From Prevotella sp. (GTDB lineage: Bacteria > Bacteroidota > Bacteroidia > Bacteroidales > Bacteroidaceae), in the NCBI GenBank assembly GCA_017623155.1, contig JAGAPR010000021.1:1-64000 (forward strand): a stretch of 64,000 nucleotides of DNA. The letters are read 5' to 3'. A program made the translations under genes and the position numbers. Below the pieces are notes generated by a model that was given only the letters and a program-made list of their open reading frames with translations, searched no databases and was not told where the DNA came from. Positions 17,304 through 41,038 of this stretch are shown piece after piece. Positions within the stretch are counted from its first letter, which is position 1. The number at the start of each line of letters is the position of its first letter.

Positions 17304-19376
17304 TTATAATTCCACGTTGAAAGCCGCTCCGGCCATTATCCATGTGCCCGGTTGCGGGATATTGCCGTAGTCTACGTACGACTTGTCGAAGATGTTGTTG
17401 GCTTCCAAATATAGCTTATATTTCGCGGTGTGCCATGATAACCGCGCGTCGAAGAGGGAGTAGGGGCTGTAAGACAGCACCGTTCCGTTTGCGTCGGCGT
17501 ATGTTCCCGTGCGTTCCTGAAAGCGGTAGTACACTCCGAGCCGCAGTGTCGGCATGATGTCGGCTTGTAGCGATGCCACCACTTTGTGTCGCAGATATTC
17601 GAGTGAATACTTGCTTTGTATGCCGGTGCGGTCGTCTTTCGACTGGTCGATATAGCTGTATGCCACGTCGAGCGAGTTCAGTATTTTCTGCCCGGGCATA
17701 AGTCTTGTGAAGTCGAAGCGTATCGAGGCCGACACGCCGACGGCGTTAACCTCTGCGAAGTTTACCGACTCCCAAGGCGCGTCGGGGCCGAGTTCGGTGT
17801 GGCGTATCCAGTCTATCAGGTTTGTGCAGTGGTTGTAATACATGGCGGCACTTGCCGTAATACCTTGTCCGCCGTACTTCATACCCGCCTCGAATGCCGA
17901 CATCTCTTCCGGTTTGAGATATTTGTCGGCTTTGTATCCTGCCTGTGTGTAGTACAGTTCCGTCACCGACGGCATGCGCAGCGACGTGTTCCACGAGGCG
18001 TACACTTTCCAGTCATTGCCAATCCGGTAGCTTGCGTCTATGCCCGGATATACTTTCATGTTCATGTTGTTCCACGAGTTTTTTGCCGCCACGAGTCCTG
18101 CTGAGAGCGTAAAACGTCTGAGCAGGATGTTGTGTTCCACCACGAAGCTGATGTTTGTCCTGTTGAGGCCGCCGGTATAGTCGCGGTCGGTGCCGTGGAT
18201 GTGGTGCGGCTTGTCGAGCGGTTCGCCGAGTGTGGTGCTGACAACATCCTCGTTGCGCAGTTCCGCGCCTATCGCCGTGCGTCCGAGTGTCCAGTCGAAG
18301 TAGCTGTTGATGTTCACTCCGAACACGTCGGAGCGGTGATAGTTGAACTTCACTTTCTCCGGTGCGTCGCGATACAGTTCGAAGCGGTCGGCGGTGCGGT
18401 TCCAATATATCGCCGGTTTGAAGTGAAGTCGTCCCCTGCGGTTTTCCGCCTGAATGGCGGTGAACGTCTTTGTGATGTGTTCGAACTGGTCGTCCCATTT
18501 CACGCCATAGAACGTGTTGGAGCCGAAATCCTTTGTGCTCATTCCCGCATGCCACTTCACTGTCACGTCCTCATCGGCATAGTTGCCCTGATAGAACGCC
18601 CGGCCGCCGCGGAAATCGGCGTTCAGTCCGCCCGCCTTGTTACGGCTGTACCCGTCGCTGCGGGTGTATCCGCCCGACAACTGGTTGTTCCATCTGCCTT
18701 TGGCGATGTTCGCCCTTGCCCCTGCGGCCGCATACCCGTACGAGCCTGTCTCCGCATGAGCGTCGATGCTTGTGCGTGTGGGTGTCTTGGTGATGATGTT
18801 GATAGCTCCGAGTAGTGATGAAGTGCCATACACACGGCCTGCCGGTCCTTCGAGAACTTCTATCCGTTCGATTTCGCTAATGTCTACGGGGAAATCGAAT
18901 GTGTTATGGCCTGTCTGCGGGTCGCAGATGTTGATGCCGTTGAGCAGTATCGTAATCTGCTCGTAGTTGCTGCCCCTGAGGCTTATGTCTGTCTGCGCTC
19001 CAATCGGTCCGCGCTGCCTGACATCCGCTCCCACGGCGTATTTCAGCAAGTCGTTAATACTTTGTACCGGAGCCTGCGCGATATCCTTGCGTTCCAGTAC
19101 AGTTACCATTCTCGCCGCCTGACTTCTTGTCAGCGGAGCCCTCGACCCGGTGATGCTCACCTCGTCGAGTGCCAGCTCTCTGTCGGTAGGCACGTTCACG
19201 GTGTCGGTCGTCACCGGTTCAACGCTCACTCCGTCGGCTTTCGCGTGCGACAGGGTGACAACGCTGAGCGTGCCGATGAGCACCTCGCGCCCCAAGCTGG
19301 CAAAGAGAGAGTAGCCCTTGCGCCCGAAGCGGTGGAACTTGAACACGTCTCTCTTGATTGAGTTTGTCTTGTACAT
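17304..19376 (-). CDS. BtuB-like TonB-dependent outer-membrane receptor
   Basis: The 690-residue protein has a signal sequence region (about residues 1-48), a plug domain and a 22-strand-type barrel. Plug motifs include ARMVTVLERKDIAQAPVQSI, VRQRGPIGAQTDISLRG, ILLNGINICDPQTGHNTFDF and IERIEVLEGPAGRVYGTSS; the last strand ends in a hydrophobic residue. Its size and plug resemble small nutrient receptors such as BtuB rather than SusC, since there is no N-terminal carboxypeptidase-like domain. Vitamin B12 uptake is a plausible use given the B12-dependent reductase upstream, but the ligand is not shown. I chose the start at 19376 (MYKTNSIKR); an earlier ATG would place the promoter box inside the gene. 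Confidence 0.85.
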   Translation of the reverse strand: MYKTNSIKRDVFKFHRFGRKGYSLFASLGREVLIGTLSVVTLSHAKADGVSVEPVTTDTVNVPTDRELALDEVSITGSRAPLTRSQAARMVTVLERKDIAQAPVQSINDLLKYAVGADVRQRGPIGAQTDISLRGSNYEQITILLNGINICDPQTGHNTFDFPVDISEIERIEVLEGPAGRVYGTSSLLGAINIITKTPTRTSIDAHAETGSYGYAAAGARANIAKGRWNNQLSGGYTRSDGYSRNKAGGLNADFRGGRAFYQGNYADEDVTVKWHAGMSTKDFGSNTFYGVKWDDQFEHITKTFTAIQAENRRGRLHFKPAIYWNRTADRFELYRDAPEKVKFNYHRSDVFGVNINSYFDWTLGRTAIGAELRNEDVVSTTLGEPLDKPHHIHGTDRDYTGGLNRTNISFVVEHNILLRRFTLSAGLVAAKNSWNNMNMKVYPGIDASYRIGNDWKVYASWNTSLRMPSVTELYYTQAGYKADKYLKPEEMSAFEAGMKYGGQGITASAAMYYNHCTNLIDWIRHTELGPDAPWESVNFAEVNAVGVSASIRFDFTRLMPGQKILNSLDVAYSYIDQSKDDRTGIQSKYSLEYLRHKVVASLQADIMPTLRLGVYYRFQERTGTYADANGTVLSYSPYSLFDARLSWHTAKYKLYLEANNIFDKSYVDYGNIPQPGTWIMAGAAFNVEL

Positions 19377-19427
19377 AAATGAATTAATAATGTTAATAAA
19401 AAACCGAGGCTTTCGCCTTGTGGCCAG

Positions 19428-19435
19428 CAAAGGTA
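19428..19435 (-). promoter_or_regulatory. Promoter box of the BtuB-like gene, at the outer edge of the inverted repeat
   Basis: The minus strand reads TACCTTTG (TAnnTTTG), preceded by an AATTCTTCATTCTTCGTTTA stretch that is also present in the right repeat copy. No cobalamin riboswitch elements are visible in the 50-nt leader. Confidence 0.6.
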
Positions 19436-20005
19436 AAAAAATAAACGAAGAATGAAGAATTATTTAAAAGTAAAAAGGTAAAAAGGTAAAAAGGTAAAAA
19501 CCGTGCGGCGTGTTTCTAAGCGCAGCCTTTTTTACCTTTTTACCTTTTTACCTTTAAAACATCTTTGTGTTTAAAAATGTAAAAACCGGAAGACAATTGT
19601 TAAACGTAAAAAGTTCGACTTGAAGTCACCGTTTAGAAAAAGCCGAGAATTTAAATTGACATTTCTGTATCATTATTTCGGGGTTGAGCTGCAATTATTC
19701 GGGGTTGGACATGATTTTCGGGTGTTTTTGCTCTGCAATAAGGCCGTAATTGCATTGCATTTACGGCCTTATTGCGTTCCAATTACGGCCTAATTGGAAT
19801 GCAATTACGGCCTAATTGGAAAACGAGAGGGGTTGTAGGAGGCGTAGGGGAGGTAGATTTTGTAAGTAAGAGTCTGACAGACAATATTTTGCGTAAAATG
19901 CTCTGAAAATGCGTTTTTTTCGCCGAGGAAATTATTTTTTGAAAAGAACGCAATTATGAGGCCTTATTTTGTAAACATAATATCAGAGATGTTAACGGTG
20001 TTAAT
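19428..20005 (+). repeat. Large inverted repeat, left copy (about 0.58 kb)
   Basis: This non-coding stretch recurs in reverse complement at 29838-30458, near-identical by eye over its whole length. Order from the left: promoter-proximal AT-rich part; a hairpin with arms of repeated GGTAAAAA (19466-19500 and 19528-19556) around a GC-rich loop; a part with TCGGGGTTG motifs; a dense set of short palindromes containing TTACGGCC and CCTAATTGG (about 19736-19820); and an AT-rich end reading AGGCCTTATTTTGTAAA. No transposase gene or open frame belongs to it. It fills the gap between the two flanking genes. Confidence 0.85.
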
Positions 20006-20122
20006 GTTTATTAAGGATTTAGTGCATCAAAATAAGCTTCTTGCAATGTGCATCATTTGTATTTTGACACAGTCTCATCCTTTTAATTCTTCATTTTTAA
20101 TTCTTCATTCTTTATTTTTTAG

Positions 20123-20130
20123 TAATTTTG
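20123..20130 (+). promoter_or_regulatory. -7 promoter box of the BASS-type transporter gene
   Basis: TAATTTTG fits TAnnTTTG and ends 8 nt before the ATG. It is preceded by AATTCTTCATTCTTTATTTT, similar to the sequence before the promoters at both repeat ends. Confidence 0.6.
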
Positions 20131-20138
20131 CAGCCGTT

Positions 20139-21098
20139 ATGAGTATACTGTCTTTTGTCAAGAAGTGGACTCTGCCCGTTGCGATATGCATCGGCACTGT
20201 TTTTTACCTGCTTTTTTCAAGCGTTGAGATACTTCAGCCCGTGGGAGATGCCATCGGACCGATATTGGCCGACTCGCTCCCTTACGGCATGTTTCTAATC
20301 CTTTATGTCACATTCTGCAAGATAAAGGTCAGCGAGATGAAGCCGCGGCCGTGGCATTTGTGGCTTCAGGTGTCGCGCGTGGTCATCGCCCTGTTGCTTG
20401 TGTGGGCAATAGTCTCTGTCGGCAGCGCGAGTGTCAAGCTCGTTCTCGAGGGAGCTTTCGTGTGCGTGGTGTGTCCCACGGCCGCCGCTGCCGCCGTGGT
20501 GACAGAAAAGCTCGGTGGCAGTATCGCCTCGCTCACCGTGTTCACGATAATCGACAATCTCGTCACCTCGCTGATAATTCCGCTCCTCTTCCCGCTTGTG
20601 GAGAAAGAGGCGCACATACCTTTTCTCGCCACGTCGCTGCTCGTGCTGCGCAATGTGGCCTCGGTGCTTGTGGCGCCGCTCGTGCTCGCGCTACTCACCC
20701 GCAAACTGGCTCCGCGGCTTAACGAGAGAATTTGCCGCACGCGCAATTTCGGCTTCTACATGTGGTGCTTCAATCTGGCGGTAGTCACCGGACTGACGGT
20801 GCACAATATCATATACTCATCCGTCACAGGCATCGTGCTTGCCGCGCTTCTCGGCCTGCCGCTCGTGGTGGCTGTTGTGCTGTTCTCGCTCGGCAAATCG
20901 TTGGGCCGACCTTACGGCGAAAACATCAGTGGCGGGCAGGCACTCGGCCAGAAGAACACCGTGGTGGCGATATGGCTCACGGTGACGTTTCTAAACCCTC
21001 TCGCCGCAGTGGGGCCCGGGGCATACGTGATATGGCAGAACATGATAAACTCATGGCAACTGTGGTACAAGGAAAAGTACGGAACGGTGAAGTGGTGA
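20139..21098 (+). CDS. Bile acid:sodium symporter (BASS)-like membrane transporter
   Basis: The 319-residue protein is a chain of about nine or ten hydrophobic helices. It begins MSILSFVKKWTLPVAICIG and contains CPTAAAAAVVTEKLGGS near residue 112 and GQKNTVVAIWLTVTFLNPLA near 270. Both regions resemble the two conserved crossing segments of the BASS/SBF family, which move organic anions with sodium. The substrate is unknown; bile acids are only the family name. An open frame continues upstream to 19956, but that part lies in the repeat and in the promoter, so I start at 20139. It is the first gene inside the repeat-bounded segment. Confidence 0.65.
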   Translation: MSILSFVKKWTLPVAICIGTVFYLLFSSVEILQPVGDAIGPILADSLPYGMFLILYVTFCKIKVSEMKPRPWHLWLQVSRVVIALLLVWAIVSVGSASVKLVLEGAFVCVVCPTAAAAAVVTEKLGGSIASLTVFTIIDNLVTSLIIPLLFPLVEKEAHIPFLATSLLVLRNVASVLVAPLVLALLTRKLAPRLNERICRTRNFGFYMWCFNLAVVTGLTVHNIIYSSVTGIVLAALLGLPLVVAVVLFSLGKSLGRPYGENISGGQALGQKNTVVAIWLTVTFLNPLAAVGPGAYVIWQNMINSWQLWYKEKYGTVKW

Positions 21099-21190
21099 GC
21101 GCGTTTAACCCTTGTAGTAGGAACGGGTATGAATAATGTAGCCCAAATGTTAAAAAGCGGCAAAAAGTCCACGATTATATTTTTTTATCG

Positions 21191-21198
21191 TAAATTCG
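21191..21198 (+). promoter_or_regulatory. Possible variant -7 box before the PL11 gene
   Basis: GTAAATTCGCA surrounds TAAATTCG, one base off TAnnTTTG. The same eleven bases occur before the GH2 gene. Confidence 0.4.
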
Positions 21199-21230
21199 CA
21201 TGTGAAACTATAATTATTACTTATTGGTAT

Positions 21231-23822
21231 ATGAAGAAATTTAGAAGATTGTGGTTCGCGTTGCTGGCAGCATTGCCCGCAGGAGCGAATGCCCAAAACA
21301 CACCGGTGAGCCAGATGGAGAAACTATCCCGAGGCGTGGTTGTCGTGCCCTCGGCCAACGGCAACGGACGTTTTATCAGTTGGCGAATGCTCGGAACGGA
21401 TAACGATTCAACTTATTTTGAGGTGCTTTGCGACGGATTCAGACTGAAAGGAAATATCAAGGATGTAACGTCTGTGACCGACCCGACGGGATATGCGAAC
21501 AGCAAATATCAGGTGGTAGCATGTCAGCAGGGCGGAGTGAGAGACACCACGGATGCCGTAACGTCGTGGAAAGACATATATTACTCTCTGCCTCTCGACA
21601 AACCGGCCGACCTGACGATGCCCGACGGCACCACATGCTCATACACTCCGAACGACTGCAGCGTGGGAGATGTCGACGGCGACGGCAACTACGAGATAAT
21701 ATTGAAGTGGGACCCGTCGAATGCCAAGGACAATTCGCATAGTGGATATACCGGAAACGTATATATCGACTGTTACAAACTCGACGGCACGAAGATGTGG
21801 CGGGTAGACCTCGGCAAGAACATACGCGCCGGAGCACACTACACACAGTTCCTTGTATACGACTTTGACGGCAACGGCAAGGCAGAACTGATATGCAAGA
21901 CGGCTCCCGGAAGCATCGACGGAACGGGAAAATACGTAAATCAGGCAGCCACGGAAGACGAAATTAAGAATGCCGACAACACCAAAGACCATCGCACGTC
22001 GGCCGGCCGTATCAACAGCGGACAGGAATATCTCACCGTGTTCAACGGCGAGACGGGCGCGGCCGTGCACACAATATACTACAACCCCAACCGCAACGGA
22101 ACATACGGCGGCGACAAGGCCGGCACGTTTAACTGGGACGACCGCTCGGGAAAAACCGACAACGGCTCGTATGGAAACCGCGGCGAGCGATATCTTGCCA
22201 CCGTGGCCTATCTCGACGGAGCGGACATGAACCCGAGCGCGGTGATGTGTCGCGGATATTACACGTATGCGTTCCTCTGGGCTGTCGACTTCGACGGCGA
22301 GCGGTTGAGTCAGAAGTGGCTGCATTACTCCAAATCGCAGACGGCAGTAGAGCTTACCGATGTCGATGGAATAAAGCATAATTTCAATTACAATACGAAC
22401 ACGAGAGGCGGCTTGGGCAGCAAGACCGCATACGGAAACGGCAATCATAACATCTCGTGCGCAGATGTCGATGGCGACGGATGCGACGAAATAGTGTGGG
22501 GCTCCTGTGCCATCGACAACAATGGAGAACTGCTTTATGCCACGGGATACGGTCATGGCGACGCCATACATCTGAGCGACCTGATACCCGACCGCCCCGG
22601 TCTCGAGGTGTTCGAGGTGCATGAGTCGAAAGACGAATATCACGGTTGGGATATTCACGATGCCGCAACGGGTGAGATAATCCGCAACGGAATAATTGCC
22701 AATGCCGACAACGGCCGCGGAATGGCTGCCGACCTCGATGCCGAATATCGCGGCTTTGAGTTCAGCTCGGCATCAGACAGGGCTGTACGCAACGCCGCCA
22801 CCGGAAATGAAATCAGCAGCAACGGCATTTCATTGAATTTCCGCGCTTATTGGGACGGCGACCTTCAAGACGAACTTCTCGACGGAAACAAGATGGATAA
22901 GTGGAACGGCAACGGTACAAGCCGCGTATATCCGAAGTCGGGCAAGAACTTCTACGACATAGCCAACTCTTCAACATGCAACAGTACGAAAGCCACTCCT
23001 AATCTCCTTGCCGACATTCTCGGCGACTGGCGCGAGGAAATCGTGTTGTGGGACGGAAGCGATGCCGCGCATCTTAATATCTTTACGACCAACGTTGAGA
23101 CGAAATACCGTGTGCCGACGCTCATGCACGACCATACTTACCGCATGGCTGTCACATGGCAGAACTCGGCGTACAACCAGCCGCCTCATCTCGGTTACTA
23201 CCTTCCTGACATTTTCCTCACGCAATATACACTTACCGGCGAAGGCGGATATGAGCAGAATGTGGCTCTCGGCGACAGCATGAAGACTGTTGTCATCAAC
23301 TATAAGAACTGTGCCACACCGAGCCTTTATTACTCAACGACACCCGACGGCACGGAAATCTCGGGCAAGGTGATGGACGGATTTAAGTTCACACGCACCA
23401 CGAAGCAGCAGAAACTGACGCTCGAAGGCAAGCCGTCCGAAATCGGAACATACGAGTTTGTTATCAGAAGCGGTGCCAATGTGGTTGACAAGTCGCAGCG
23501 TTACGATACTATCCGTGTGGTATGTATGGTCAATGACGGTATCGAAGGCATCATGGCCGGACAGGGAAAAGAGTGGGTTAGCGTGAAGAGCGGCGGCGCG
23601 ATGAGCGACAATATCGTGCTCGCTTTCGACTTGAAGAAACCTCAGAACGTGGAGATAGGTCTCTATTCCGTCACGGGAGCCAAGGTTTACGGCATCAGTC
23701 ACTTCGCTGGCAACAACGCGCCGGTGGAGATTTCCGGTCTCGGACGACTTACGGGAGGCATGTATGTGCTCAAAGTTAAATCGTCGGAAGGCACGTTCGC
23801 TCACAAGATTATGAAGCGATAA
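21231..23822 (+). CDS. Rhamnogalacturonan lyase (PL11) with C-terminal sorting domain
   Basis: PL11 enzymes cut the rhamnose-galacturonate backbone of rhamnogalacturonan I by beta-elimination. The 863-residue protein has a signal peptide (about residues 1-21, ending ANAQ) and the PL11 opening MEKLSRGVVVVPSANGNGRFISWRM, written here in two parts: MEKLSRGVVV and ISWRMLGTD. A propeller rich in calcium-binding loops follows (VGDVDGDGNYEI, YDFDGNGKAEL, ADVDGDGCDEI). Near 600 comes LADILGDWREEIVLWDG, also conserved. The last 70 residues (IGLYSVTGAKVYG ... GGMYVLKV ... AHKIMKR) look like a type IX secretion sorting domain, so it may be exported to the surface. A GH2 gene follows on the same strand. 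Confidence 0.9.
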   Translation: MKKFRRLWFALLAALPAGANAQNTPVSQMEKLSRGVVVVPSANGNGRFISWRMLGTDNDSTYFEVLCDGFRLKGNIKDVTSVTDPTGYANSKYQVVACQQGGVRDTTDAVTSWKDIYYSLPLDKPADLTMPDGTTCSYTPNDCSVGDVDGDGNYEIILKWDPSNAKDNSHSGYTGNVYIDCYKLDGTKMWRVDLGKNIRAGAHYTQFLVYDFDGNGKAELICKTAPGSIDGTGKYVNQAATEDEIKNADNTKDHRTSAGRINSGQEYLTVFNGETGAAVHTIYYNPNRNGTYGGDKAGTFNWDDRSGKTDNGSYGNRGERYLATVAYLDGADMNPSAVMCRGYYTYAFLWAVDFDGERLSQKWLHYSKSQTAVELTDVDGIKHNFNYNTNTRGGLGSKTAYGNGNHNISCADVDGDGCDEIVWGSCAIDNNGELLYATGYGHGDAIHLSDLIPDRPGLEVFEVHESKDEYHGWDIHDAATGEIIRNGIIANADNGRGMAADLDAEYRGFEFSSASDRAVRNAATGNEISSNGISLNFRAYWDGDLQDELLDGNKMDKWNGNGTSRVYPKSGKNFYDIANSSTCNSTKATPNLLADILGDWREEIVLWDGSDAAHLNIFTTNVETKYRVPTLMHDHTYRMAVTWQNSAYNQPPHLGYYLPDIFLTQYTLTGEGGYEQNVALGDSMKTVVINYKNCATPSLYYSTTPDGTEISGKVMDGFKFTRTTKQQKLTLEGKPSEIGTYEFVIRSGANVVDKSQRYDTIRVVCMVNDGIEGIMAGQGKEWVSVKSGGAMSDNIVLAFDLKKPQNVEIGLYSVTGAKVYGISHFAGNNAPVEISGLGRLTGGMYVLKVKSSEGTFAHKIMKR

Positions 23823-23951
23823 GGCGCTACAACGGCGGAAAACGGATTGTGGCATGCTCTCTGTGGCATGGAAACCGTTTCCCAAGCGCATTTTCGTACG
23901 ATATTCACAGTTTTCGTACAATATTCCCATATTCATTGATTTGTAATGTTG

Positions 23952-23959
23952 TAAATTCG
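23952..23959 (+). promoter_or_regulatory. Possible variant -7 box before the GH2 gene
   Basis: TAAATTCG inside GTAAATTCGCA, the same form as at 21191. It lies 13 nt before the start codon. Confidence 0.4.
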
Positions 23960-23972
23960 CAACATAAATTCA

Positions 23973-26879
23973 ATGAATATGGGAATTACTTTTAAACAAC
24001 TGCTGACTGTTACGTGCATGACCGTTGTCATGAGCGCCGCGGCGCGCGATACGTACAATTTCAATTCCGGTTGGAGAATTGACAAACAAAAGAAAACGGT
24101 AACTTTGCCACACGCTTGGAACGAGGATGAGGCGTTTAAGGTGGGCATTCACGACATGAGCGATTCCGTGATATGGTATCGCAAGACGTTCGTATTGCCA
24201 AAAAATGCCGAGGGACGCCGTGTGTTTATCGAGTTCGAGGGAGCCCGTCAGGCCGCCGAAGTATTTGTAAACGGCAAGAATGTGGGGCTGCATGAGAACG
24301 GAGTGATGGCTTTCGGCTTCGACCTTACGCCCTACGTGAAGCGCGGAAAGAACCTGATAGAGGTGCGCACGGATAACGACTGGCGCTATCATGAGCGTGC
24401 TACCGGCTCAACCATACAGTGGAACAACAACAATTTCAATTCAAACTACGGCGGCTTGCCCAAGAATGTGAAGCTGCACATCACCGATAACGTTTATCAG
24501 ACGCTGCCGCTTTACAGTAACCTGAAAACAACAGGTATCTATGTATATGCCAAAGACCATGACATTCAGGGCCGTCAGGCCACGGTTTGCGTTGAGAGTG
24601 AGGTGCGCAATGAGACCGATGCGCCTGTCACCAAGCGTCTGCAAGTGACTCTTACCGAGATGGACGGCCGCGAGATATGCGGTTTCGGCAGCGAGAGCGT
24701 CACCATTCCCGCCCGCGGCACCGTTGTGCTCAAAGCCCGGTCGCGTGCTTACGGCCTGCATTTCTGGAGCTGGGGATACGGCTATTTGTATAAGGTGAAG
24801 ACCGCATTGGCGGACGACAAGGCTTCATCTACCGACGAGGTGACCACCGTTACCGGTTTCCGTAAAACGGAATTCAAGAACGGAATGTTCTATTTGAACG
24901 ACCGTGTGATGATGGTTCACGGCTATGCGCAGCGCACAAGCAACGAATGGCCGGGCGTGGGAATGTCTGTTCCCGCATGGCTCAGCGACTATTCAAACGA
25001 CCTTATGGTGAAGAGTGGCGGCAATGTGGTGCGCTGGATGCACGTGGCTCCGTGGAAACAGGATGTGGAGTCGTGCGACCGTGTGGGCCTTATACAGGCC
25101 ATGCCGGCCGGAGATGCGGAGAAAGATGTCGACGGTCGTCGCTGGGAGCAGCGCGAGGAGGTGATGCGCGATGCCATAATATACAACCGTAACAACCCGA
25201 GCATCATTTTCTATGAGTGCGGAAACCAGAAAATCTCGGCCGAACACATGATATCAATGAAAGCAATACGCGATGAATACGACCCCGACGGAGGCCGTGC
25301 GATAGGATGCCGCGAGATGCTCGACCGCCCGGAAGCCGAATATGGGGGCGAGATGCTGTATGTAAACAAGAGCGATACCAAGCCGATGTGGATGATGGAG
25401 TACTGTCGCGACGAGGCTTTGCGCTGGTATTGGAACTCATGGAGCTATCCGTATCATAAGGAAGGCGACGGCCCTCTTTATCGCAATGCTCCCGCAGATG
25501 CCTATAATCATAATCAGGATGAGTTTGTCCGTGAACTTGTCGCACGCTGGTATGACTATTGGCTCGAGCGTCCCGGCAGCGGAACGAAGGTCAATTCTGG
25601 CGGCGTGAAAATCGTTTTCAGCGACACGCAGACTCACGGACGCTCCGCGGATAACTATCGTGTGAGCGGAGTTGTCGACCCGATGCGTGTACCCAAGGAT
25701 GCTTTCTATGCCCATCAGGTGATGTGGGACGGCTGGGTTGACGACCTGAAGCCGAGAACCCATATCGTCGGTCACTGGAATTACAAGCAGGATGAGGTCA
25801 TTCCTACCATATACGTGGTGTCTACGAGCGACAGTGTCACGCTTTCGCAGGGTGGGAAAACAATTACCGCCGACGAGCATTTATATCGTTTCCTGCATGT
25901 GTTCAAGAACGTGAAGTATACTTCCGGCAAGCTCACGGCCACCGCAATGGACCGCAACGGCCGTGTAGAATCGACCTGTTCGCTTGAAACGGCGGGCGAC
26001 CCGGCAAGCATAAAGCTCACCGCAATAGAGAACCCCACGGGCTGGAAAGCCGACGGTAACGACCTCGCTATCGTTCAGGTGGAAATCGTTGACAAGCAGG
26101 GTAGGCGCTGTCCGCTCGACAATCGCCTCGTGAAATTCTCTCTCAGCGGTCCTGCCGAGTGGCGCGGCGGCGTGGCGAAAGGCAAGGACAATCACGTGCT
26201 GTGCGATACCTTGCCCGTTGAATGCGGCGTAAACCGTGTCATGTTGCGTTCTCTTGATAAGGCGGGCAACGTCACTCTGACGGCGAAAGCCGAGGGAATG
26301 GGCGATGCCAAAATCTCTTTCACCACGAAGACCGTTGCCGTTGAGGGCGGACTTACCACCTATATGCCGTCCGACGGACTGAAAAGTGTGCTCGACCGCG
26401 GCGAAACACCGGCCTCGCCGTCGTTCCGTCAGTGGCGCCGCAGTGTGGCGATAGAGTCTGCCGTGACAGGTAGCGGCAACGATCCGCGGTTGAGTTTCGA
26501 CACGTTCGAGAACACATCATGGGAGAGTGGCAACAAGCTCGACGAGGCATGGATAACATATACTCTTGCCGAAAACACCACGATAGACGATATTTGCGTG
26601 AAGATGAAAGGCTTCCGCGCCACCACTTACCCCATTGCCGTGTATGCCGGTGAAGTGAAAGTGTGGGAGGGGTGGACTCCCAAGTCGCTCAGTTATATCC
26701 ATATCCCGCTCAAAGACGCGCCTAAATCGCGTGTATATACCATCCGCTCGCTCGGTTCGAGCACCACGAAAGATGCTTTCGGTGCCGTGCAGGAGCTTGA
26801 CAGCAAGAACAACGAGAAGAAACAACGGGGCAACAACGCCTTGAAGATTATAGAGATAGAATTTCTTAAGAACCTTTGA
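23973..26879 (+). CDS. Glycoside hydrolase family 2 enzyme with C-terminal discoidin-like domain
   Basis: The 968-residue protein has a signal peptide (about 1-24). It then has the GH2 set: sugar-binding beta domain (TLPHAWNEDEAF, IWYRKTFVLP, FEGARQAAEVFVNGKNVG), an immunoglobulin-like domain, and a TIM barrel from about 300. The barrel shows IIYNRNNPSIIFYECGNQ at 402-419, where GH2 enzymes usually have Asn-Glu with Glu as acid/base; here it reads Asn-Gln. A likely nucleophile is E476 in MWMMEYCRDE. The last 170 residues resemble an F5/8-type (discoidin) binding domain. Beta-galactosidase-like activity on pectin side chains is a guess; loss of activity is also possible. Confidence 0.82.
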   Translation: MNMGITFKQLLTVTCMTVVMSAAARDTYNFNSGWRIDKQKKTVTLPHAWNEDEAFKVGIHDMSDSVIWYRKTFVLPKNAEGRRVFIEFEGARQAAEVFVNGKNVGLHENGVMAFGFDLTPYVKRGKNLIEVRTDNDWRYHERATGSTIQWNNNNFNSNYGGLPKNVKLHITDNVYQTLPLYSNLKTTGIYVYAKDHDIQGRQATVCVESEVRNETDAPVTKRLQVTLTEMDGREICGFGSESVTIPARGTVVLKARSRAYGLHFWSWGYGYLYKVKTALADDKASSTDEVTTVTGFRKTEFKNGMFYLNDRVMMVHGYAQRTSNEWPGVGMSVPAWLSDYSNDLMVKSGGNVVRWMHVAPWKQDVESCDRVGLIQAMPAGDAEKDVDGRRWEQREEVMRDAIIYNRNNPSIIFYECGNQKISAEHMISMKAIRDEYDPDGGRAIGCREMLDRPEAEYGGEMLYVNKSDTKPMWMMEYCRDEALRWYWNSWSYPYHKEGDGPLYRNAPADAYNHNQDEFVRELVARWYDYWLERPGSGTKVNSGGVKIVFSDTQTHGRSADNYRVSGVVDPMRVPKDAFYAHQVMWDGWVDDLKPRTHIVGHWNYKQDEVIPTIYVVSTSDSVTLSQGGKTITADEHLYRFLHVFKNVKYTSGKLTATAMDRNGRVESTCSLETAGDPASIKLTAIENPTGWKADGNDLAIVQVEIVDKQGRRCPLDNRLVKFSLSGPAEWRGGVAKGKDNHVLCDTLPVECGVNRVMLRSLDKAGNVTLTAKAEGMGDAKISFTTKTVAVEGGLTTYMPSDGLKSVLDRGETPASPSFRQWRRSVAIESAVTGSGNDPRLSFDTFENTSWESGNKLDEAWITYTLAENTTIDDICVKMKGFRATTYPIAVYAGEVKVWEGWTPKSLSYIHIPLKDAPKSRVYTIRSLGSSTTKDAFGAVQELDSKNNEKKQRGNNALKIIEIEFLKNL

Positions 26880-26894
26880 TATATATTGAACAAC

Positions 26895-26943
26895 AACCAA
26901 AAAGCGCGTCGCCATGACACAGGCGACGCGCTTTTTGGTTTGT
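26895..26943. terminator. Bidirectional terminator with 19-bp stem
   Basis: The arm at 26895-26913 (AACCAAAAAGCGCGTCGCC) pairs perfectly with 26922-26940. A/T runs at both sides let it serve the GH2 gene and the DUF2442 gene. Confidence 0.88.
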
Positions 26944-26983
26944 ATTATAGATATAAAAGTTTTGTATATGACTTCCGTATTGT

Positions 26984-27274
26984 TTACGCATCCATGAAAT
27001 CCAGTTGGTTTCGTTTGATTACAAGCGGATAACGTTCGGGATGACGGAGGCTTTCTATTTCGAGATCCACGTCAAGGTCCGGCCATTCGATGGCTTCGCG
27101 ACCGCTCATTTGAACATTGAGCACGCTGCGAACGGGAGCGTCTTGCATCCAAGGTATGCGGTTGTACGACAGGAAATAGTCGTGTCCCTGCACAGAAAGC
27201 ATTATACCCTGTGCGTTAATCATCAATACGCTTACCGATGTGTCGGCGGAATTGTTCTGCGAAACTGTCTGCAT
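26984..27274 (-). CDS. DUF2442 domain protein
   Basis: The 96-residue protein contains a DUF2442-type core: VLMINAQGIMLSVQGHDYFLSYNRIPWMQDAP, given here as its ends VLMINAQGIML and SYNRIPWMQDAP. EWPDLDVDLEIESLRHPERYPL follows near residue 63. The family is short, of unknown function, and usually encoded directly after a DUF4160 gene, as here. The frame overlaps the upstream DUF4160 gene by 59 bases; starting at the internal Met 18 would cut this to 8 bases. Such pairs are often listed as possible toxin-antitoxin modules, which the sequence itself does not prove. Confidence 0.75.
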   Translation of the reverse strand: MQTVSQNNSADTSVSVLMINAQGIMLSVQGHDYFLSYNRIPWMQDAPVRSVLNVQMSGREAIEWPDLDVDLEIESLRHPERYPLVIKRNQLDFMDA

Positions 27275-27467
27275 GTTTATCTATTATTTTCTTTATTTCA
27301 TTTAATTTATGTTCAGGAATGCCCGTGTTCTTTGCCAATTCCACGCGCGGATACAACCAAAATTTGGCTTCGTGGCCGTCGTAGAGCACGTGGATGTGCA
27401 TTCGCTCCTCTTCATTGGAGTATATCTTGAATGTATATTCGTTCTCGCGTCTGAATACCGGACTCAT
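27216..27467 (-). CDS. DUF4160 domain protein
   Basis: The 83-residue protein starts MSPVFRRENEYTFKIYSNE and carries the DUF4160 hallmark EERMHIHVLYDGHEAKFWL, with two His residues close together, then a helical tail (HKLNEIKKIIDKHADSF). The function is unknown. It is translated first and overlaps the DUF2442 gene, so the two form a small operon placed between carbohydrate enzyme genes. A TATTTTTG promoter box lies about 20 nt upstream (27495-27488 on the minus strand). Confidence 0.78.
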   Translation of the reverse strand: MSPVFRRENEYTFKIYSNEEERMHIHVLYDGHEAKFWLYPRVELAKNTGIPEHKLNEIKKIIDKHADSFAEQFRRHIGKRIDD

Positions 27468-27487
27468 TATTTCGTTTGCTTTTGGGG

Positions 27488-27495
27488 CAAAAATA
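27488..27495 (-). promoter_or_regulatory. -7 promoter box of the DUF4160-DUF2442 pair
   Basis: The minus strand reads TATTTTTG, matching TAnnTTTG. TTTG elements occur upstream, but at shorter than usual distance. Confidence 0.45.
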
Positions 27496-27570
27496 CAAAA
27501 TCTTTTTCAAACAAAAGACATTTCAGAAGAAATCTTTTACTGTCTGTGGCATTCGGTTGGTGCTTTCTTT

Positions 27571-29571
27571 TCACAGCGTCGGCTCCACGATTTTTATCGT
27601 GCCGTCGGCGTTAAACTCCATTTTGTCGATGCACACCTCGCGGTTATATCCTGCCGCCCAGCCTTTCTTTATGGCCTCGGGGCGTGCAAACCGGTGATAC
27701 ACTATGCGCCAGTCGTCGCTGCCCGGCAGTCGGAGTATGGAGTGATGTCCCGTGCCGAAGATGCCCTTTGCCGGGTTTTGGCTCAGTACCACAGTGCGTT
27801 CCTGTCGTGCCGGTTTGCCGTTTCTCACGAATTCCACCGGCGACTCGCTGATGAGATAACGCACGCGGTAGTTCGCGCTGCGCGTGTCGTTCTCCGACCA
27901 CATGAAGTAGTACAGTCCGTTGCGTTCAAACACGTATGTCCCCTCGTTGTAGTTGTATCTTGTCTTGTCCTTGCGGTCTATCAGCACCTTTGTCGACACG
28001 ATGCTCTTCATGTCCTTGCCCAGTTCCGACACGGCGAGAAAACCGTTGCCCCAGTAGAGATAATACTTTCCTGTTTTCGGGTCTTGAAACACGTCGGGGT
28101 CTATCACCTGTCCGCCTTTCATGCCATCGGGCTTGTTGGCGAGCAGCGGTTTGCCCAGTGCGTCGCGGAACGGTCCCGCGGGGGTGTCGGCCTCTGCCAC
28201 GCCTATTTTGCCTTCGGCGGTGAAGTAATAGTAGTATTTATACTTCTTCTTACTTACCTTTTTCTCTATTATACACGGTGCCCACAGACATTTGTTTGCC
28301 CACTTGCAGTCTTTTTCGAGATCGAAAATCACGCCCTCGTCCGTCCAGTTCTTCAAGTCGGCCGACGAGTAAACCTTTGCATCGTGGTTTTTCCAGCCCT
28401 CGATGCCGTCCGTCGTGGGATATAGATAATATTTTCCCGTCTTCTCGCTGTACAGTATTTCGGGGTCGGCGAACAGTCCGTTTATCACCGGATTGTCGGC
28501 GTTGGGAGCCACGTGCTTGCTTTGCAGTCCGTCCGACCAAGCCTGCAACCGGTCGTATTCCTCTTTTGTCAGTCTCATGAACGAGCCGTGTTGCGGGCCG
28601 TTTACGCCCTCGATGTCCTGCGGATTGCTGAAATTGCGCATATACTTGTCAGCCTTGCAGATGCGGTAGCGTCGCGGATTGGATGAATATTCGATGTATC
28701 CGATGCGCCATGTCGAGTCGCCAGCCAGTTGAAAAGCCGATACCCCCTCGCATTTTTTCTTGCCTTCGAAGTCAATGTAGTCATCGGCCACCGGCTCGCT
28801 CCACGGTCCGGTGAGCGATTTTGCCGTGGCGGTGAACAGTCCCGGCTGTCCGCCCTCTTTCTTTATCATCATGTGATACAGCCCGTCGGCGTCGAGATAG
28901 TTGATGTCGGCGTCGATGGTGGCATATCCCCAGTCGAACAGCAGCCTCGGTTTTGTCAGCGTGGTGAAGCTCTCGTCGGCATACGAGTAGTACATGCGGT
29001 CATATTTCTCCTCGGCCCTGTTCCACAGCGAGTAGTAGATGAAGTATCCGCCGCGTCGCCCGTCGGGCCATTCGTATGTCGGGTCCCAGAATGTTTGCGG
29101 TGCCCACACACGGTTTATCGTGCTCCAATCCTTGTATACATCGGGCGAGTCGGGGTCGCTGAATATGCCGGCCCCTTTGCGGAAATCAAATGTCACCGAC
29201 TTCCAGTTTATCAGGTCGTCGCTTGTCAACAGGTCGATGCCGTAGTTGTCCCATTTTTTGCTCTTTGCCACGCACATGTCTGTCGTCACCATCAGATATC
29301 CCGTGCCGTCGTGCTTGCGGCAGATGTAAGCATCGCGCGTTCCCCCCTCAATGCGCGCATGTTCGGTGGTGTTGAACACCGCGTCGCCGTTTATCAGGTC
29401 GTGGAAGTGCAGTCCGTCGCGGCTCAGCGCGTATGCCGTCCATTCTCCGCGTCCGCTCATGTGGCAGTACAGATAGCCGTAGTCGCCCTTTTGCAGGTTT
29501 TGCGCGGGCGATGCAATCGGAGTCATAGCCACGGCCAGCACCATGCTCCACAGTTTTTTCAGTCTTTTCAT
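27571..29571 (-). CDS. Secreted protein with two GH43 domains
   Basis: The 666-residue protein has a signal peptide (about residues 1-23) and two five-bladed propellers in tandem. The first (about 28-340) has TRDAYICRKHDGTGYLMVTTD, ATIDADINYLDADGLY and KKCEGVSAFQL, placing Asp, Asp and Glu at the usual catalytic spots. The second (about 365-660) begins NPVINGLFADPEILYSEKTG, with the base Asp, and has DPDVFQDPKTGKYYLYWG and NYNEGTYVFERNGLYYFMW with the candidate acid Glu. Such tandem proteins are known among arabinan- or galactan-degrading Bacteroides enzymes. It likely trims side chains of rhamnogalacturonan I. It faces left, opposite to the PL11 and GH2 genes, and begins just inside the right repeat. 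Confidence 0.85.
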   Translation of the reverse strand: MKRLKKLWSMVLAVAMTPIASPAQNLQKGDYGYLYCHMSGRGEWTAYALSRDGLHFHDLINGDAVFNTTEHARIEGGTRDAYICRKHDGTGYLMVTTDMCVAKSKKWDNYGIDLLTSDDLINWKSVTFDFRKGAGIFSDPDSPDVYKDWSTINRVWAPQTFWDPTYEWPDGRRGGYFIYYSLWNRAEEKYDRMYYSYADESFTTLTKPRLLFDWGYATIDADINYLDADGLYHMMIKKEGGQPGLFTATAKSLTGPWSEPVADDYIDFEGKKKCEGVSAFQLAGDSTWRIGYIEYSSNPRRYRICKADKYMRNFSNPQDIEGVNGPQHGSFMRLTKEEYDRLQAWSDGLQSKHVAPNADNPVINGLFADPEILYSEKTGKYYLYPTTDGIEGWKNHDAKVYSSADLKNWTDEGVIFDLEKDCKWANKCLWAPCIIEKKVSKKKYKYYYYFTAEGKIGVAEADTPAGPFRDALGKPLLANKPDGMKGGQVIDPDVFQDPKTGKYYLYWGNGFLAVSELGKDMKSIVSTKVLIDRKDKTRYNYNEGTYVFERNGLYYFMWSENDTRSANYRVRYLISESPVEFVRNGKPARQERTVVLSQNPAKGIFGTGHHSILRLPGSDDWRIVYHRFARPEAIKKGWAAGYNREVCIDKMEFNADGTIKIVEPTL

Positions 29572-29607
29572 TGTCAGTGGTTATTATTATCCGGATTATG
29601 TATTTTG

Positions 29608-29615
29608 CAAAGATA
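29608..29615 (-). promoter_or_regulatory. -7 promoter box of the double-GH43 gene
   Basis: The minus strand reads TATCTTTG, an exact TAnnTTTG match, 37 nt before the start. The -33 region has no clear TTTG. Between here and 29838 I see only AT-rich tandem stretches (TTTGAATTATGAA type) and a short CCTCCCC/GGGAGG hairpin. Confidence 0.55.
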
Positions 29616-29837
29616 GGAAAATAATTTTGAATTATGAATTTTGAATTATGAATTATTCTCGCTTCGCTGCGATGTTGATTTATTGAATTTTGAATAATTA
29701 TCTGTAGCTCAACCCGACCTCCCCAACGGGAGGAGATGGAAAGGTGAGTGGTGAATGAAGAGTTATGATTACATTATGTATTTATAATTTAAGCTACCAA
29801 CTTAGAATTTATAATTCACAACCAAATGTTAATGTAT

Positions 29838-30458
29838 ATTAAACATATTAACATCTCTGATATTATATTTACAAAATAAGGCCTCATAATTGCGTTCTTT
29901 TCAAAAAATAATTTCCTCGGCGAAAAAAACGCATTTTCAGAGCATTTTGCGTAAAATATTGTCTGACAGCCTGTTACCTACAAAACCTACCGCCCCTACG
30001 CCCCCTACAACCCCTCCTCATTTCCAATTAGGCCGTAATTGCATTCCAATTAGGCCGTAATTGGAACGCAATAAGGCCGTAAATGCAATGCAATTACGGC
30101 CTTATTGCAGAGCAAAAACACCCGAAAAACATGCCCAAACCTGAATAATTGCATCTCAACCCCGAAATAATGACACGGAAATGTTAATTTAAATTCTCGG
30201 CTTTTTCTAAACGGTGACTTCAAGTTGCACTTTTTACGTTTAACAATTGTCTTGCGGTTTTTACAATATTTAAAGATAGAAGGCAGTTTAAAAGGTAAAA
30301 AAGTAAAAAGGTAGAAAGGTAAAAAAGGCTGCGCTTAGAAACACGCCGCACGGTTTTTACCTTTTTACTTTTTTACCTTTTTACTTTTTTACCTTTCTAC
30401 CTTTTTACTTTTTTACCTTTAAATAATTCTTATTCTTCATTTATTTTATTACTTTTGT
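29838..30458 (-). repeat. Large inverted repeat, right copy (about 0.62 kb)
   Basis: Reverse complement of the stretch at 19428-20005. The TTACGGCC/CCTAATTGG palindromes lie at about 30028-30110. The octamer hairpin has arms at 30291-30326 and 30353-30420 around the same GC-rich loop as in the left copy; the outer arm is about twice as long as the matching arm on the left. The homology runs on through AAATAATTCTTATTCTTCAT to the promoter box of the next gene. No open frame of its own is seen. Confidence 0.85.
30450..30457 (+). promoter_or_regulatory. -7 promoter box at the outer end of the right repeat
   Basis: TACTTTTG matches TAnnTTTG, 24 nt before the start at 30482. Its place relative to the repeat is the same as that of TACCTTTG in the left copy. 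Confidence 0.6.
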
Positions 30459-30481
30459 CTTAAATTATTAATACATATAAT

Positions 30482-33223
30482 ATGGTGCGACGTTATTTCA
30501 AAATAATACTCCTGTCGGTTTTTGTGGTGTTTCAGTCTGTTGCCGTGTCGGCATCTGAAAAACTTGACGGCATACGCCGGGCTTTGGAGGCATCTTCCGT
30601 GAGCCGGTTGCAGGAGAAAGTATATCTGCACACCGACAATACATGCTATTTCATCGGCGATACGCTTTGGTATAAAGCATACGTGGTGGGTGCGGGCGAC
30701 CTGCGCCCCACCACGATGAGCCGCATACTGTATGTCGAACTGCTCACTCCCGACGGCCTTGTGGCCGAGCGCCAGAGCGTCATTGTGAGCGCGAATGGTT
30801 TTACGTGTGGAAACTTCGCGCTTCAAGACACACTCTACTCTGGATATTACGAGCTGCGGGCGTACACCCGTTGGATGCTCAATTTCAACGTGGCGGAGCA
30901 TGACTATACGAAAGACGACGCACATTATTTCTATAACAACAAGATGGCGGCCGACTATTTCCGCCACTGGGAGGGACTTTACTCGCGGGTGTTGCCCGTT
31001 TATGAGCGTCCCGACTCGGCAGGCAACTATGCAGGGAAATGGATGGTCAGCCGCCATAAGCAACGCATTGCCAAAGCCGTCAGGCCGGGGTTGCGCGCCG
31101 CGTTCTATCCCGAAGGCGGTGCGATGACGGTGGGCGTGCCCTGTCGTGTGGCGTTCGAGGTTACCGACGAGCAGGGCGCGGCGGTAGATATAAAAGGTGT
31201 TGTCGCGGGCGACGGCGTGAAAACAACCGACATTGCCACCACATACATGGGGCGCGGAGCGTTCACCGTCACCCCGACGGTGCGGCGTCTCAGAGCGTCT
31301 TTCACGTGGAAAGGCCGCGACTATTCGTTCGAGTTGCCCGCTGCCGAGCCTGCGGGAGCCACCGTCCGCCTGTCGGGGCGCAGCGTGGATATCTCGTCGG
31401 CAGGACTGCCGGCCGGCGACTACGGTCTGTCGGTGCTCTGCCGCGGCGTGCTCCGACATTTCACCACCGTCAGTCTCGACGTTTCGGGGCGCGCGTCGAT
31501 TACCCTTCCCGCCGGTCTTCCGGCCGGAGTGAACGACCTTACGCTGTTCGACGAGAGCGGCCGAATACTTGCCGACCGCCTTTTCTTCGTGCGCCCGACA
31601 GCCGGAGACGTGTCGAAAATCACGCTCGGCGGAAATGTCAAGGCCGAATATTCGCCATACGAAGAGATAAACCTTGACCTCGTCTGCGGAGATTCCGTAG
31701 GCTTGCTGCCCGTGTCTGTATCGGTGAGAGACGCCCGCACTGACGAACCGACATACGACAACGGCAACATAATGACCGACATGCTGCTCGGAAGCGAGCT
31801 TCGCGGCTTTGTGGCCAATCCCTCATATTATTTTGAAAAGGCCGATGCAGGGCACGATGCCGCCCTCGACCTGCTCATGATGGTGCAAGGCTGGCGGCGG
31901 TATAAATGGAGCGAGCACGCCGATACCGTGCCTGCCCGGTTGCGTTACACGCCCGAGACGGCGCTTACCGTGGAGGGCAGCGTGCACAAAACGCTCGGCG
32001 TGTATGACGTGGAAAACGGAGAGGTATACTATTGGCGGACAGGACAATTCATGACAGGAATAGTTGTCGAGCCGGAAGAAAGCGTGCCGCACAGAGTCTT
32101 TGAGTTGGGTAATATAGCCCGGGTGAACAGCCATCTTGGCGTTAATCATCCCGACTTGAAGAAAGAAGTGACGGTGGAAGCCGAGATAATATTCGGTGAC
32201 GAAGTGCTCGGAAATACGCAGCTTACGCACGACGGTGGCCGCTATCTGTTCGAACTGCCGCCGTATTACGGTGAGGCGGTGTTGAAAATGACAGCCTACA
32301 AAGAGAAAGACTCGCTCAAACGCGGCATGCAAACCCGGAAAGGAACACAGCATCTTTATGAGACTGCCATGCCCGATTACTATGTGAAGCGCGACCTCTT
32401 CTTCCCGCGATATGCCGACAAGTATGACTACTACCGGATAAACAAACCCGAGAGCGAATTGGAAAAATCCTTGTTTGGCGGAGTTGCCGACTCGCTCCTT
32501 TCCATGGAGCGCGACATACACAGGCTGCAAGACGTGAACGTGAGCGGTCGCCGGCGCGGCAAAAGGGGAGTAGACTACGACCAACCGGCGTATGTCATCG
32601 ACGCATACACACTGTATAACACCGTCACCGACTACGGACTGAGCTACGGACAGTTCGACCGACGGATGTTTCCCGTGCAGGTGGCGCGCCTGCTTTACGG
32701 CAACATGGGGCGCACAAACAGGTTTAACGTAGACTCGCGGGTAGACAGATACACATATTACAGAAGCTATGTTCCCGACACGGCGAATGCCGGCAAGATA
32801 TGGGAAAACCGCAATGAGGACGATTTGCTGAACGAACTGAGCCTGCGGCGGCTGAACGAGGTGAGAGTGTTTACAGACTATGAGCCTCGCAATGAGGACG
32901 CCTTTACGGAGCAAGACCATTACAATGCTGACGTGACGGTGGAGATGGTGCCGTTTGAGGAAGGTGTGGTGCAGCCCACATTCCGCGACCGACATATCAT
33001 GCTGCCCGGACTGAACGAGCCTGCCGACTTCTATAATCCCGATTACAGCGGTGCTCATCCCGCCGGGCCGACTGATTTCCGGCGCACGCTTTACTGGAAT
33101 CCCAACGCACGGCCAGATGCCGGCGGACACCTGAAATTGCGGTTGTTCAACAACAGCGGAAGCACGGCGGTGAAAATATCTGTGGCAGGAATTACGGCCG
33201 ACGGAAGGTTTGTGGTTTATTGA
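30482..33223 (+). CDS. Large exported MG2-like (macroglobulin-type) protein of unknown function
   Basis: The 913-residue protein has a signal peptide (about residues 1-25). A domain resembling MG2 of alpha-2-macroglobulin follows: LQEKVYLHTDNTCYFIGDTLWYKAYVV near 40-66, shown here by its core YLHTDNTCYFIGDTLWYKAY. Several beta-sandwich repeats follow (about 190-400). Near 660-690 comes a segment LQDVNVSGRRRGKRGVDYD, like the link to a TonB-plug-type region seen in related Bacteroidales proteins. The thioester motif of true macroglobulins is absent. Such proteins are frequent in Bacteroidales and are listed only as MG2 or regulatory-like; location is probably periplasm or outer membrane. No enzyme function is claimed. 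Confidence 0.65.
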   Translation: MVRRYFKIILLSVFVVFQSVAVSASEKLDGIRRALEASSVSRLQEKVYLHTDNTCYFIGDTLWYKAYVVGAGDLRPTTMSRILYVELLTPDGLVAERQSVIVSANGFTCGNFALQDTLYSGYYELRAYTRWMLNFNVAEHDYTKDDAHYFYNNKMAADYFRHWEGLYSRVLPVYERPDSAGNYAGKWMVSRHKQRIAKAVRPGLRAAFYPEGGAMTVGVPCRVAFEVTDEQGAAVDIKGVVAGDGVKTTDIATTYMGRGAFTVTPTVRRLRASFTWKGRDYSFELPAAEPAGATVRLSGRSVDISSAGLPAGDYGLSVLCRGVLRHFTTVSLDVSGRASITLPAGLPAGVNDLTLFDESGRILADRLFFVRPTAGDVSKITLGGNVKAEYSPYEEINLDLVCGDSVGLLPVSVSVRDARTDEPTYDNGNIMTDMLLGSELRGFVANPSYYFEKADAGHDAALDLLMMVQGWRRYKWSEHADTVPARLRYTPETALTVEGSVHKTLGVYDVENGEVYYWRTGQFMTGIVVEPEESVPHRVFELGNIARVNSHLGVNHPDLKKEVTVEAEIIFGDEVLGNTQLTHDGGRYLFELPPYYGEAVLKMTAYKEKDSLKRGMQTRKGTQHLYETAMPDYYVKRDLFFPRYADKYDYYRINKPESELEKSLFGGVADSLLSMERDIHRLQDVNVSGRRRGKRGVDYDQPAYVIDAYTLYNTVTDYGLSYGQFDRRMFPVQVARLLYGNMGRTNRFNVDSRVDRYTYYRSYVPDTANAGKIWENRNEDDLLNELSLRRLNEVRVFTDYEPRNEDAFTEQDHYNADVTVEMVPFEEGVVQPTFRDRHIMLPGLNEPADFYNPDYSGAHPAGPTDFRRTLYWNPNARPDAGGHLKLRLFNNSGSTAVKISVAGITADGRFVVY

Positions 33224-38029: not shown

Positions 38030-38073
38030 AGGCTTATCCGACATATCGAGTGACATATATATATCCGTTTGTT

Positions 38074-38154
38074 CGTAGGGGCGCACGGTTCGTGCGTCCG
38101 CCGGATGGCTAAAAATGTAATATTAAAGCGGACGCACGAGCCGTGCGCCCCTAT
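38074..38154. repeat. REP double-palindrome element E1
   Basis: It starts with GTAGGGGCGCACG and ends CGTGCGCCCCTA. Two palindromes in opposite order (loops GTT and AGC) are separated by about 30 AT-rich bases. It is a diverged relative of the elements around the transposase gene. The left flank (38029-38073) is also similar to the sequence right of element E3. The rest of the gap 37961-38356 holds a terminator and a promoter. Confidence 0.8.
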
Positions 38155-38239
38155 GAGTAACGGGAAAACATTTTCCTGTTTTGACTGTTGACCAAACCTT
38201 GAATATAAGTTTTAAGTGTTAAAAATACCCAAATAGTAG

Positions 38240-38277
38240 TTTGAATGAATAAAAAATCATATATTTGCAACCGAATA
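38240..38277 (+). promoter_or_regulatory. Likely promoter of the 865-residue secreted protein gene
   Basis: TATATTTG at 38270-38277 fits TAnnTTTG; TTTG at 38240-38243 is 26 nt upstream, a little farther than usual. The leader is about 75 nt. Confidence 0.5.
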
Positions 38278-38356
38278 TTATTCATTACGGCTATTTATTT
38301 AGCATACATAAAGATTATAATCATCTATTAACTTATAAAAATTAACAACAACAATT

Positions 38357-40954: not shown

Positions 40955-40987
40955 TGTGCGATATAAGATAGTTAAATAATCTATTTA

Positions 40988-41019: not shown

Positions 41020-41038
41020 ATTCTAACATAAAAACATT

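Follow-up and report, generated by a model that had tools for sequence, protein, structure and literature searches.

Inverted repeats in a Prevotella contig

Within the 64,000 nucleotides analyzed here (the window: positions 1 to 64,000 of contig JAGAPR010000021.1 in the Prevotella sp. assembly GCA_017623155.1), two long inverted non-coding repeats lie at the ends of a segment with genes for pectin degradation. The original prediction held that such repeats can invert the segment between them, or that each of them is an insertion of a non-coding mobile element not described before. Comparison of the window with itself confirms the repeats, as an inner pair of 445 nt (19570-20014 and 29829-30273, 92% complementary) and an outer pair of 116 nt (19440-19555 and 30299-30414, 88%). 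They had been described as matching along their full length; the inner part stands as an element of about 450 nt, and the outer part belongs to a separate, AAAGGT-rich hairpin block. Copy 1 of the element occupies 19569-20019 on the plus strand, with bounds taken from alignment with 26 other full-length copies, and copy 2 occupies 29824-30274 on the minus strand, with bounds taken from alignment with other copies. The two copies are 92-93% identical in inverted orientation.

Between the repeats, Pfam recovers the PL11 (RGL11_C) and GH2 genes that had been proposed. The proposed tandem GH43 is reduced to a single GH43 domain at 27571-29571, and the open reading frames (ORFs) taken for a pair of domains of unknown function (27005-27430 and 27394-28425) have no Pfam match, the second of them lying on the opposite strand to the GH43 gene and overlapping it. 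The supposed transporter (ORF 19956-21098) is likewise without a Pfam match at 1e-3. The window's own genome is a metagenome-assembled genome of 2.74 Mb in 104 contigs and is 84% complete. Judged from its DnaA, it is a member of Prevotella: the best match is Prevotella sp. MGM1 (89%), followed by Xylanibacter rodentium (80%).

Structure of the element

The center of the element is an array of four imperfect palindromes of 22 nt. It lies at 19735-19821 on the plus strand in copy 1, where it is marked by low divergence per 11-nt bin over 26 copies, and at 30022-30109 on the minus strand in copy 2, as read from the array and the alignment. The predicted cluster of palindromes (TTACGGCC / CCTAATTGG) is confirmed as this array of four 22-nt units in both window copies. 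Among 26 copies, mean pairwise divergence in the bins of the array is 0-0.068, compared with 0.132 and 0.309 for the two flanking bins. The number of units is exactly four in 26 of 27 full copies and five in the other one. Low-divergence bins of alignment A1 also define a conserved 5' block, GACTTGAAGTCACCGTTTAG, at 19617-19636 of copy 1 (plus strand; columns 45-66) and a conserved 3' block, GCGTTTTTTTCGCC...TTTTGTAAACATAATATCAG, at 19910-19986 (plus strand; columns 342-418). Across family A, in which both arms are common to many copies, the main conserved blocks outside the array are GACTTGAAGTCACC and a 3' block of 77 nt that ends in TTTTGTAAATATAATATCAG. Some loci keep the 5' arm and the array and have a different 3' arm (L084, L090 and L097; L086 and L095; L068, L072, L069, L074 and L077), and in family B the array is placed between other arms.

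The ends of the copies are variable when read by eye, with short CTTAATA-type ends in some copies of family A and TTAACAT-type ends in family B. Also by eye, a direct repeat, TTTGTAAA.AT-N11-TGTTAA, is present at both ends of family A, and similar pairs are seen in MGM1 and in genome G391. This form is not kept in X. rodentium and no enzyme is linked to it, although direct-repeat ends of this kind would suit a tyrosine recombinase. The flanks of the element are AT-rich and diverged from MGM1, with junctions read by eye and a poor mafft alignment of the empty sites. There is no consistent reading frame across the copies; ORFs of at least 90 amino acids overlap 5 of 41 copies, at differing places within them.

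Distinct from the element are the outer 120-150 nt 5' of it, which consist of AAAGGT repeats around GTGTTTCTAAGCGCAGCC. Self-comparison and a motif scan place this separate short repeat at 19440-19568 on the plus strand, 5' of copy 1, and at 30275-30423 on the minus strand, beside copy 2. Its exact motif occurs at six places among the loci fetched from the window's genome, every one of them 5' of a family A copy. The weak miRNA-type Rfam matches in the hairpin blocks all fall under the gathering score.

Copies within the genome

A 41-nt core pattern of the element, allowing up to three mismatches, has 58 matches at 57 places in the window's genome, 44 of the 58 being exact, and the reversed control has none. 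The similarity of the repeats and their copy number are therefore beyond chance. Among the best 40 of 174 candidates from a search with copy 1, all are 83-100% alike, and a second core pattern is present at 61 sites. With 57 places of 450 nt, the element amounts to about 26 kb, near 1% of the genome. Contig ends are no more than 120 nt away from 16 of the 58 core matches, the pattern that a repeat would leave by interrupting the assembly. When 59 copies were placed relative to genes, which were called as longest-ORF picks with no trained gene finder, 41 had genes on both sides. Because 16 of these pairs are divergent, 10 + 10 tandem and 5 convergent, there is no consistent orientation of the copies to their neighboring genes. 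The copies sit in unrelated flanks, and copy 2 is nearer to the copy at L048 (0.935) than to copy 1 (0.926). The pair in the window is thus two among 57 places and not a matched pair.

No full element was recovered from the other genomes searched. When 59 further genomes from the genus were searched with the 445-nt element, only two matches resulted, of 43-47 nt, one of which (in G058) is a diverged relative, and 118 other genomes of the order gave two short matches, of about 34 and 61-64 nt. The second core pattern was absent from 99 other genomes of the genus, and no family A match was found across the whole MGM1 genome. No exact match to the element was found among GTDB representatives or in IMG/VR, collections that may exclude near-identical genomes. 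Since the full element is missing from the other genomes of the genus that were searched and from MGM1, family A is a young local amplification.

Comparison with a collinear genome

The contig that holds the window is collinear with MGM1 over 68 kb (7.8 to 76 kb), at 68-87% identity. A low-threshold scan located 22-nt arrays at 9626, 19712 (copy 1), 29997 (copy 2), 61602, 71026 and 77447, and five of these sites are comparable. Two of the arrays lie elsewhere in the window, one at 9626-9731 with another unit (GTTACTTCGGCCGCGTAACAAC) and one at 61602-61699 of GTTAC..CGGCC..GTAAC type. At three of the five comparable sites the array is missing in MGM1, as read by eye. The aligned blocks are separated there by 222 nt at site 9626 (584 nt in the window's genome), 167 nt at the site of copy 1 (675 nt) and 34 nt at site 71026 (550 nt). 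At site 61602 MGM1 has an array in the same gap with its own unit and other letters. At the site of copy 2 the corresponding intergenic gap of MGM1 holds another array element, in the other orientation, as read by eye; the scan missed this array, and two AT-rich or coding stretches that it flagged were not counted.

The segment from 20.1 to 29.6 kb has the same order and orientation in MGM1, where copy 1 is absent and another element stands at the far end. Because of this arrangement, the window copies fit separate insertions, or losses in MGM1, and they did not bring the pectin genes in. A composite element carrying these genes was considered and rejected, as the copies are no matched pair and the segment is collinear; that the repeats bound a pectin-degradation segment looks like coincidence. 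The check proposed with the original prediction, a search of the whole genome and its relatives, found further copies and sites without an array, and the idea that each repeat is an insertion of a hitherto undescribed non-coding mobile element gains support from the many dispersed copies and from the array-free sites in MGM1, that of copy 1 included.

Arrays of the same pitch in related genomes

Diverged relatives are present at 36 places in G058 (best 40 of 160 candidates), 30 in X. rodentium (best 40 of 71) and 27 in MGM1 (best 40 of 110), counts that contain short matches, possibly by chance, and that for G058 and MGM1 include the query's own place. A motif of the 3' arm is found in 28 of 398 genomes of the genus, the window's own included, with multiple sites in some and two control sites overall. 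Some single matches look like chance, and the match in G224 and one in G183, inside an apparent polA-like gene, were discarded as probably such. The letters of the array vary between the species read, and the pitch is constantly 22. This was examined by comparing lag 22 with the sum of 18 others, taking all lags from 13 to 40 that are not multiples of three, at one threshold and with low-complexity segments excluded; multiples of three were left out as likely coding repeats. Lag 22 scored 13 against 1 in G016, 11 against 9 in G045, 4 against 0 on the window's contig and 1 against 0 on the MGM1 contig. Over 80 Prevotella dnaA loci the count was 27 against 23, with 12 for the largest single other lag. 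A genome from another genus of the same family gave 2 against 0 in 100 kb, and 262 kb from three genomes of other families gave 0 against 1. With multiples of three kept, period 22 was seen in 36 arrays at the dnaA loci, period 21 in 40 and period 24 in 28, and a second count gave 9, 9 and 16, respectively.

The arrays in G016 are bare, with no common frame visible around them. By eye, its units (L265-L279) combine dyads of TGACTCA/TGCGTCA/TGACGCA-like and TTACAGTGTAA-like type in mosaics, at a spacing of about 11 bp. Hand tallies point to clustering: in the G016 samples (L262-L281) 9 of 13 arrays lie in the interval 480-1140 kb, and in the G045 samples (L282-L301) three windows hold 8 of 9. 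Although the arrays cluster, no clear link to the replication origin or terminus emerged when 20 + 20 windows were sampled from two complete genomes, and a reading of the arrays in terms of chromosomal macrodomains was rejected on these grounds.

In MGM1, two different frames surround the arrays. Among 30 loci, inverted TATTTATGCAAAA ends were found on both strands in 7 rows, which represent 4 distinct places, compared with 0 of 150 background windows, and the exact TTTAACACTT arm was found at three other places; the TTTAACACTT frame is defined mainly by reading its arm. Both frames carry an AACGGG-type unit, in a related form only at one of the four TATTTATGCAAAA places. The arm of the TTTAACACTT frame (TTTAAC...CGAAATAGAAAA) is also seen in G058 and X. 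rodentium, there joined to other units. Because one unit is shared by unrelated frames in MGM1 and one arm is found with other units elsewhere, unit and frame appear separable, and this suggests a unit tied to the genome and a frame tied to the lineage of the element. Either a common binding factor or gene conversion among the arrays would account for this. The MGM1 arrays at L182, L312-L341 and L362-L366, with the TATTTATGCAAAA-ended frame, have a clearer shape of the kind seen in miniature inverted-repeat transposable elements (MITEs) than the element in the window.

Substitutions between copies bear on whether the array acts as DNA or as RNA. The family A array is nearly invariant, and the test for compensatory changes was confined to X. 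rodentium, where 18 of 20 fetched stretches were used and two without the 5' motif were dropped. The array in these 18 copies is an inverted repeat of 26 bp. It has 20 cells with compensatory double changes, compared with a shuffled mean of 8.0 (0 of 500 shuffles reach 20) and with 1-3 in slid controls; kinship of the copies can inflate the shuffle test, and the slid controls retain that kinship. On a weaker measure, pairs changed on both sides, the count is 5 against 3.7, and 84 of 500 shuffles reach 5. Within the covarying helix G.T occupies 7 cells and A.C 8, which are small numbers and show no wobble preference. As compensatory changes occur without an excess of G.T, the X. rodentium array is, as far as its substitutions can tell, a DNA dyad and not an RNA helix.

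Possible origin and role of the element

The two repeats are best explained as copies of a non-coding element of about 450 nt that likely spreads as a non-autonomous mobile element and is mobilized in trans by a putative recombinase or transposase, an explanation to which we assign a probability of about 0.6. This machinery is predicted to recognize conserved blocks of DNA, above all the four-unit array of 22-bp palindromes, and the copies would be moved by a dedicated recombinase instead of by duplication. The mosaic of conserved blocks would be expected if new copies arose solely from those in which the blocks still work. We interpret the element as MITE-like. MITEs are described as non-coding, multi-copy, intergenic sequences of 50-1000 bp, and the element is about 450 nt long, with copies at 57 places and genes on both sides in 41 of 59. 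The array itself may be a protein-binding dyad module, with letters that co-evolve with a binding factor specific to each genome, because within a genome one unit is found in unrelated frames and across species one frame is found with different units. More widely, the arrays with a 22-nt pitch likely mark an undescribed class of mobile DNA. It is a more tentative proposal, and one we think somewhat improbable as a whole, that they form a genome-wide system in Prevotella and near relatives, in which arrays of 22-bp palindromes have letters private to each genome and common to unrelated mobile frames; this would imply a predicted, fast-changing, trans-acting DNA-binding factor needed by the elements and perhaps by the chromosome.

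Several observations weigh against mobility of this kind. No transposase or integrase is tied to the element in searches for PF00589 and PF01797; the 14 tyrosine-recombinase matches in the window's genome include two within about 1.1 kb of a copy, which we estimate to be about the chance level, and Y1 transposases were not found in that genome (at 84% completeness), in G058 or in MGM1. The inverted ends are short and variable, and neither the ends nor target-site duplications can be fixed to the base. The TTTAACACTT motif with up to one mismatch is also present in 11 of 150 background windows, and few places carry this frame. The similarity of the units disagrees with the tree, because X. rodentium has a more similar unit than MGM1 despite its greater distance in DnaA (80% and 89%, respectively). 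Absence from MGM1 by itself does not separate insertion in the window's genome from loss in MGM1, and the two of five comparable gaps that hold an MGM1 array with other letters also fit fixed sites with turnover of sequence.

That last observation leads to the most serious of the alternatives, which we nevertheless consider unlikely: the arrays would be fixed chromosomal sites that bind a host DNA-binding or nucleoid protein, with positions kept, letters renewed by gene conversion and mobility secondary. The sharp conservation of the array, its dispersal over whole genomes and the use of one unit in different MGM1 frames are all in keeping with such sites, as are the two gaps occupied in both genomes. 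However, MGM1 is without an array at three of the five comparable sites, elements of about 450 nt in unrelated flanks imply copying of the whole element, and the clustering has no clear origin or terminus pattern in the 20 + 20 samples. Template switching produces inverted repeats in which changes are compensatory and neither strand is preferred, and this is the picture in X. rodentium. The array could thus be a functionless minisatellite, its palindromes made perfect by template switching and increased in number by slippage within ordinary MITEs, and MITEs of Porphyromonas gingivalis are also described as holding tandem repeats (PMC4596501). Yet a neutral minisatellite fits poorly with four units in 26 of 27 copies, with a pitch of 22 in many species with different units and with the conservation of other blocks of the element, and it is accordingly rated as improbable.

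A family of structured small RNA genes is more doubtful still. Predicted folding is strong (z -3.95 for copy 1 and -9.44 for one X. rodentium copy), but the helix has no wobble preference at the small counts given above. Covariation in the window's genome contributes only -1.06 of -69.69 kcal/mol, with a double change in 5 of 102 pairs. Moreover, all 11 Rfam matches in 19300-30600 are under their gathering scores, and the copies have no consistent orientation to adjacent genes. Least probable of all is a pectin-gene switch by site-specific or homologous inversion of the 9.8-kb segment. Two inverted copies that are 92-93% alike could in principle serve such a switch, but the inversion that had been suggested is unsupported: the order and orientation of the segment are unchanged in MGM1, and the copies occupy two of 57 places without being mutual best relatives.

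If the pattern of arrays holds, then Prevotella genomes share a kind of dispersed array that is hidden from similarity searches, since species differ in the letters and have only the 22-nt pitch in common. The arrays would also explain contig breaks and give a handle on a new recombinase or DNA-binding factor. They would further raise the testable question of what keeps dispersed arrays similar inside one genome yet unlike from species to species.

Relation to known repeats

Integron attC sites are hairpin-forming DNA in which the fold is kept as the letters drift. The arrays resemble them as hairpin DNA that keeps its fold, but are singly dispersed and on a 22-nt lattice. Repetitive extragenic palindromic (REP) sequences and bacterial interspersed mosaic elements (BIMEs), which are associated with Y1 transposases (REP-associated tyrosine transposases, RAYTs), are dispersed and intergenic. 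Both they and the element described here are thus dispersed intergenic palindromes, although REPs are shorter, at 20-40 nt in the part of the source available (PMC3733652), and a Y1 transposase is missing from the window's genome, G058 and MGM1. An IS200/RAYT origin was rejected for the same three genomes; Y1 transposases are present in G016, G045 and X. rodentium.

The closest description is that of BrickBuilt in P. gingivalis, an intergenic MITE with an internal minisatellite of 23 nt (PMC4596501). As here, it is non-coding, intergenic and repeated, with leader and tail arms around a central array, and the two are alike in near-equal unit length, a link to assembly gaps and presence in few species (PMC4596501). 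In that account BrickBuilt has 12-nt IS5-type ends (GAGACC...), direct tandem repeats of 23 nt (18 in BrickBuilt_5) and 19 copies in strain ATCC 33277 (PMC4596501). By eye, such GAGACC-type, IS5-family ends are not seen on the copies in the window's genome, the ends of which are TTAA-rich. In place of direct tandem 23-nt repeats the copies have imperfect 22-nt palindromes, four per copy in 26 of 27, at 57 places and with a pitch that recurs in other species with other letters. PINSR, a 188-bp repeat of P. intermedia and P. nigrescens, is intergenic, judged non-coding and of unknown source; the available part of its description gives 177 and 184 copies in two strains and no terminal inverted repeats (PMC4755523). 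It shares with the present element a Prevotella host, an intergenic position, a non-coding nature and many copies, and differs in its length of 188 bp and in that no array is described in that part of the source, a comparison made by description and not by sequence (PMC4755523). In the open-licence PMC literature nothing else on point was found for such arrays in Prevotella or Bacteroidetes. Apart from the arrays, the window contains a different dispersed short repeat, GTAGGGACGCACGGTTCGTGCGTCCGAA, at 38061-42809, including two 86-nt stretches at 41807 and 42705 that are 98% alike.

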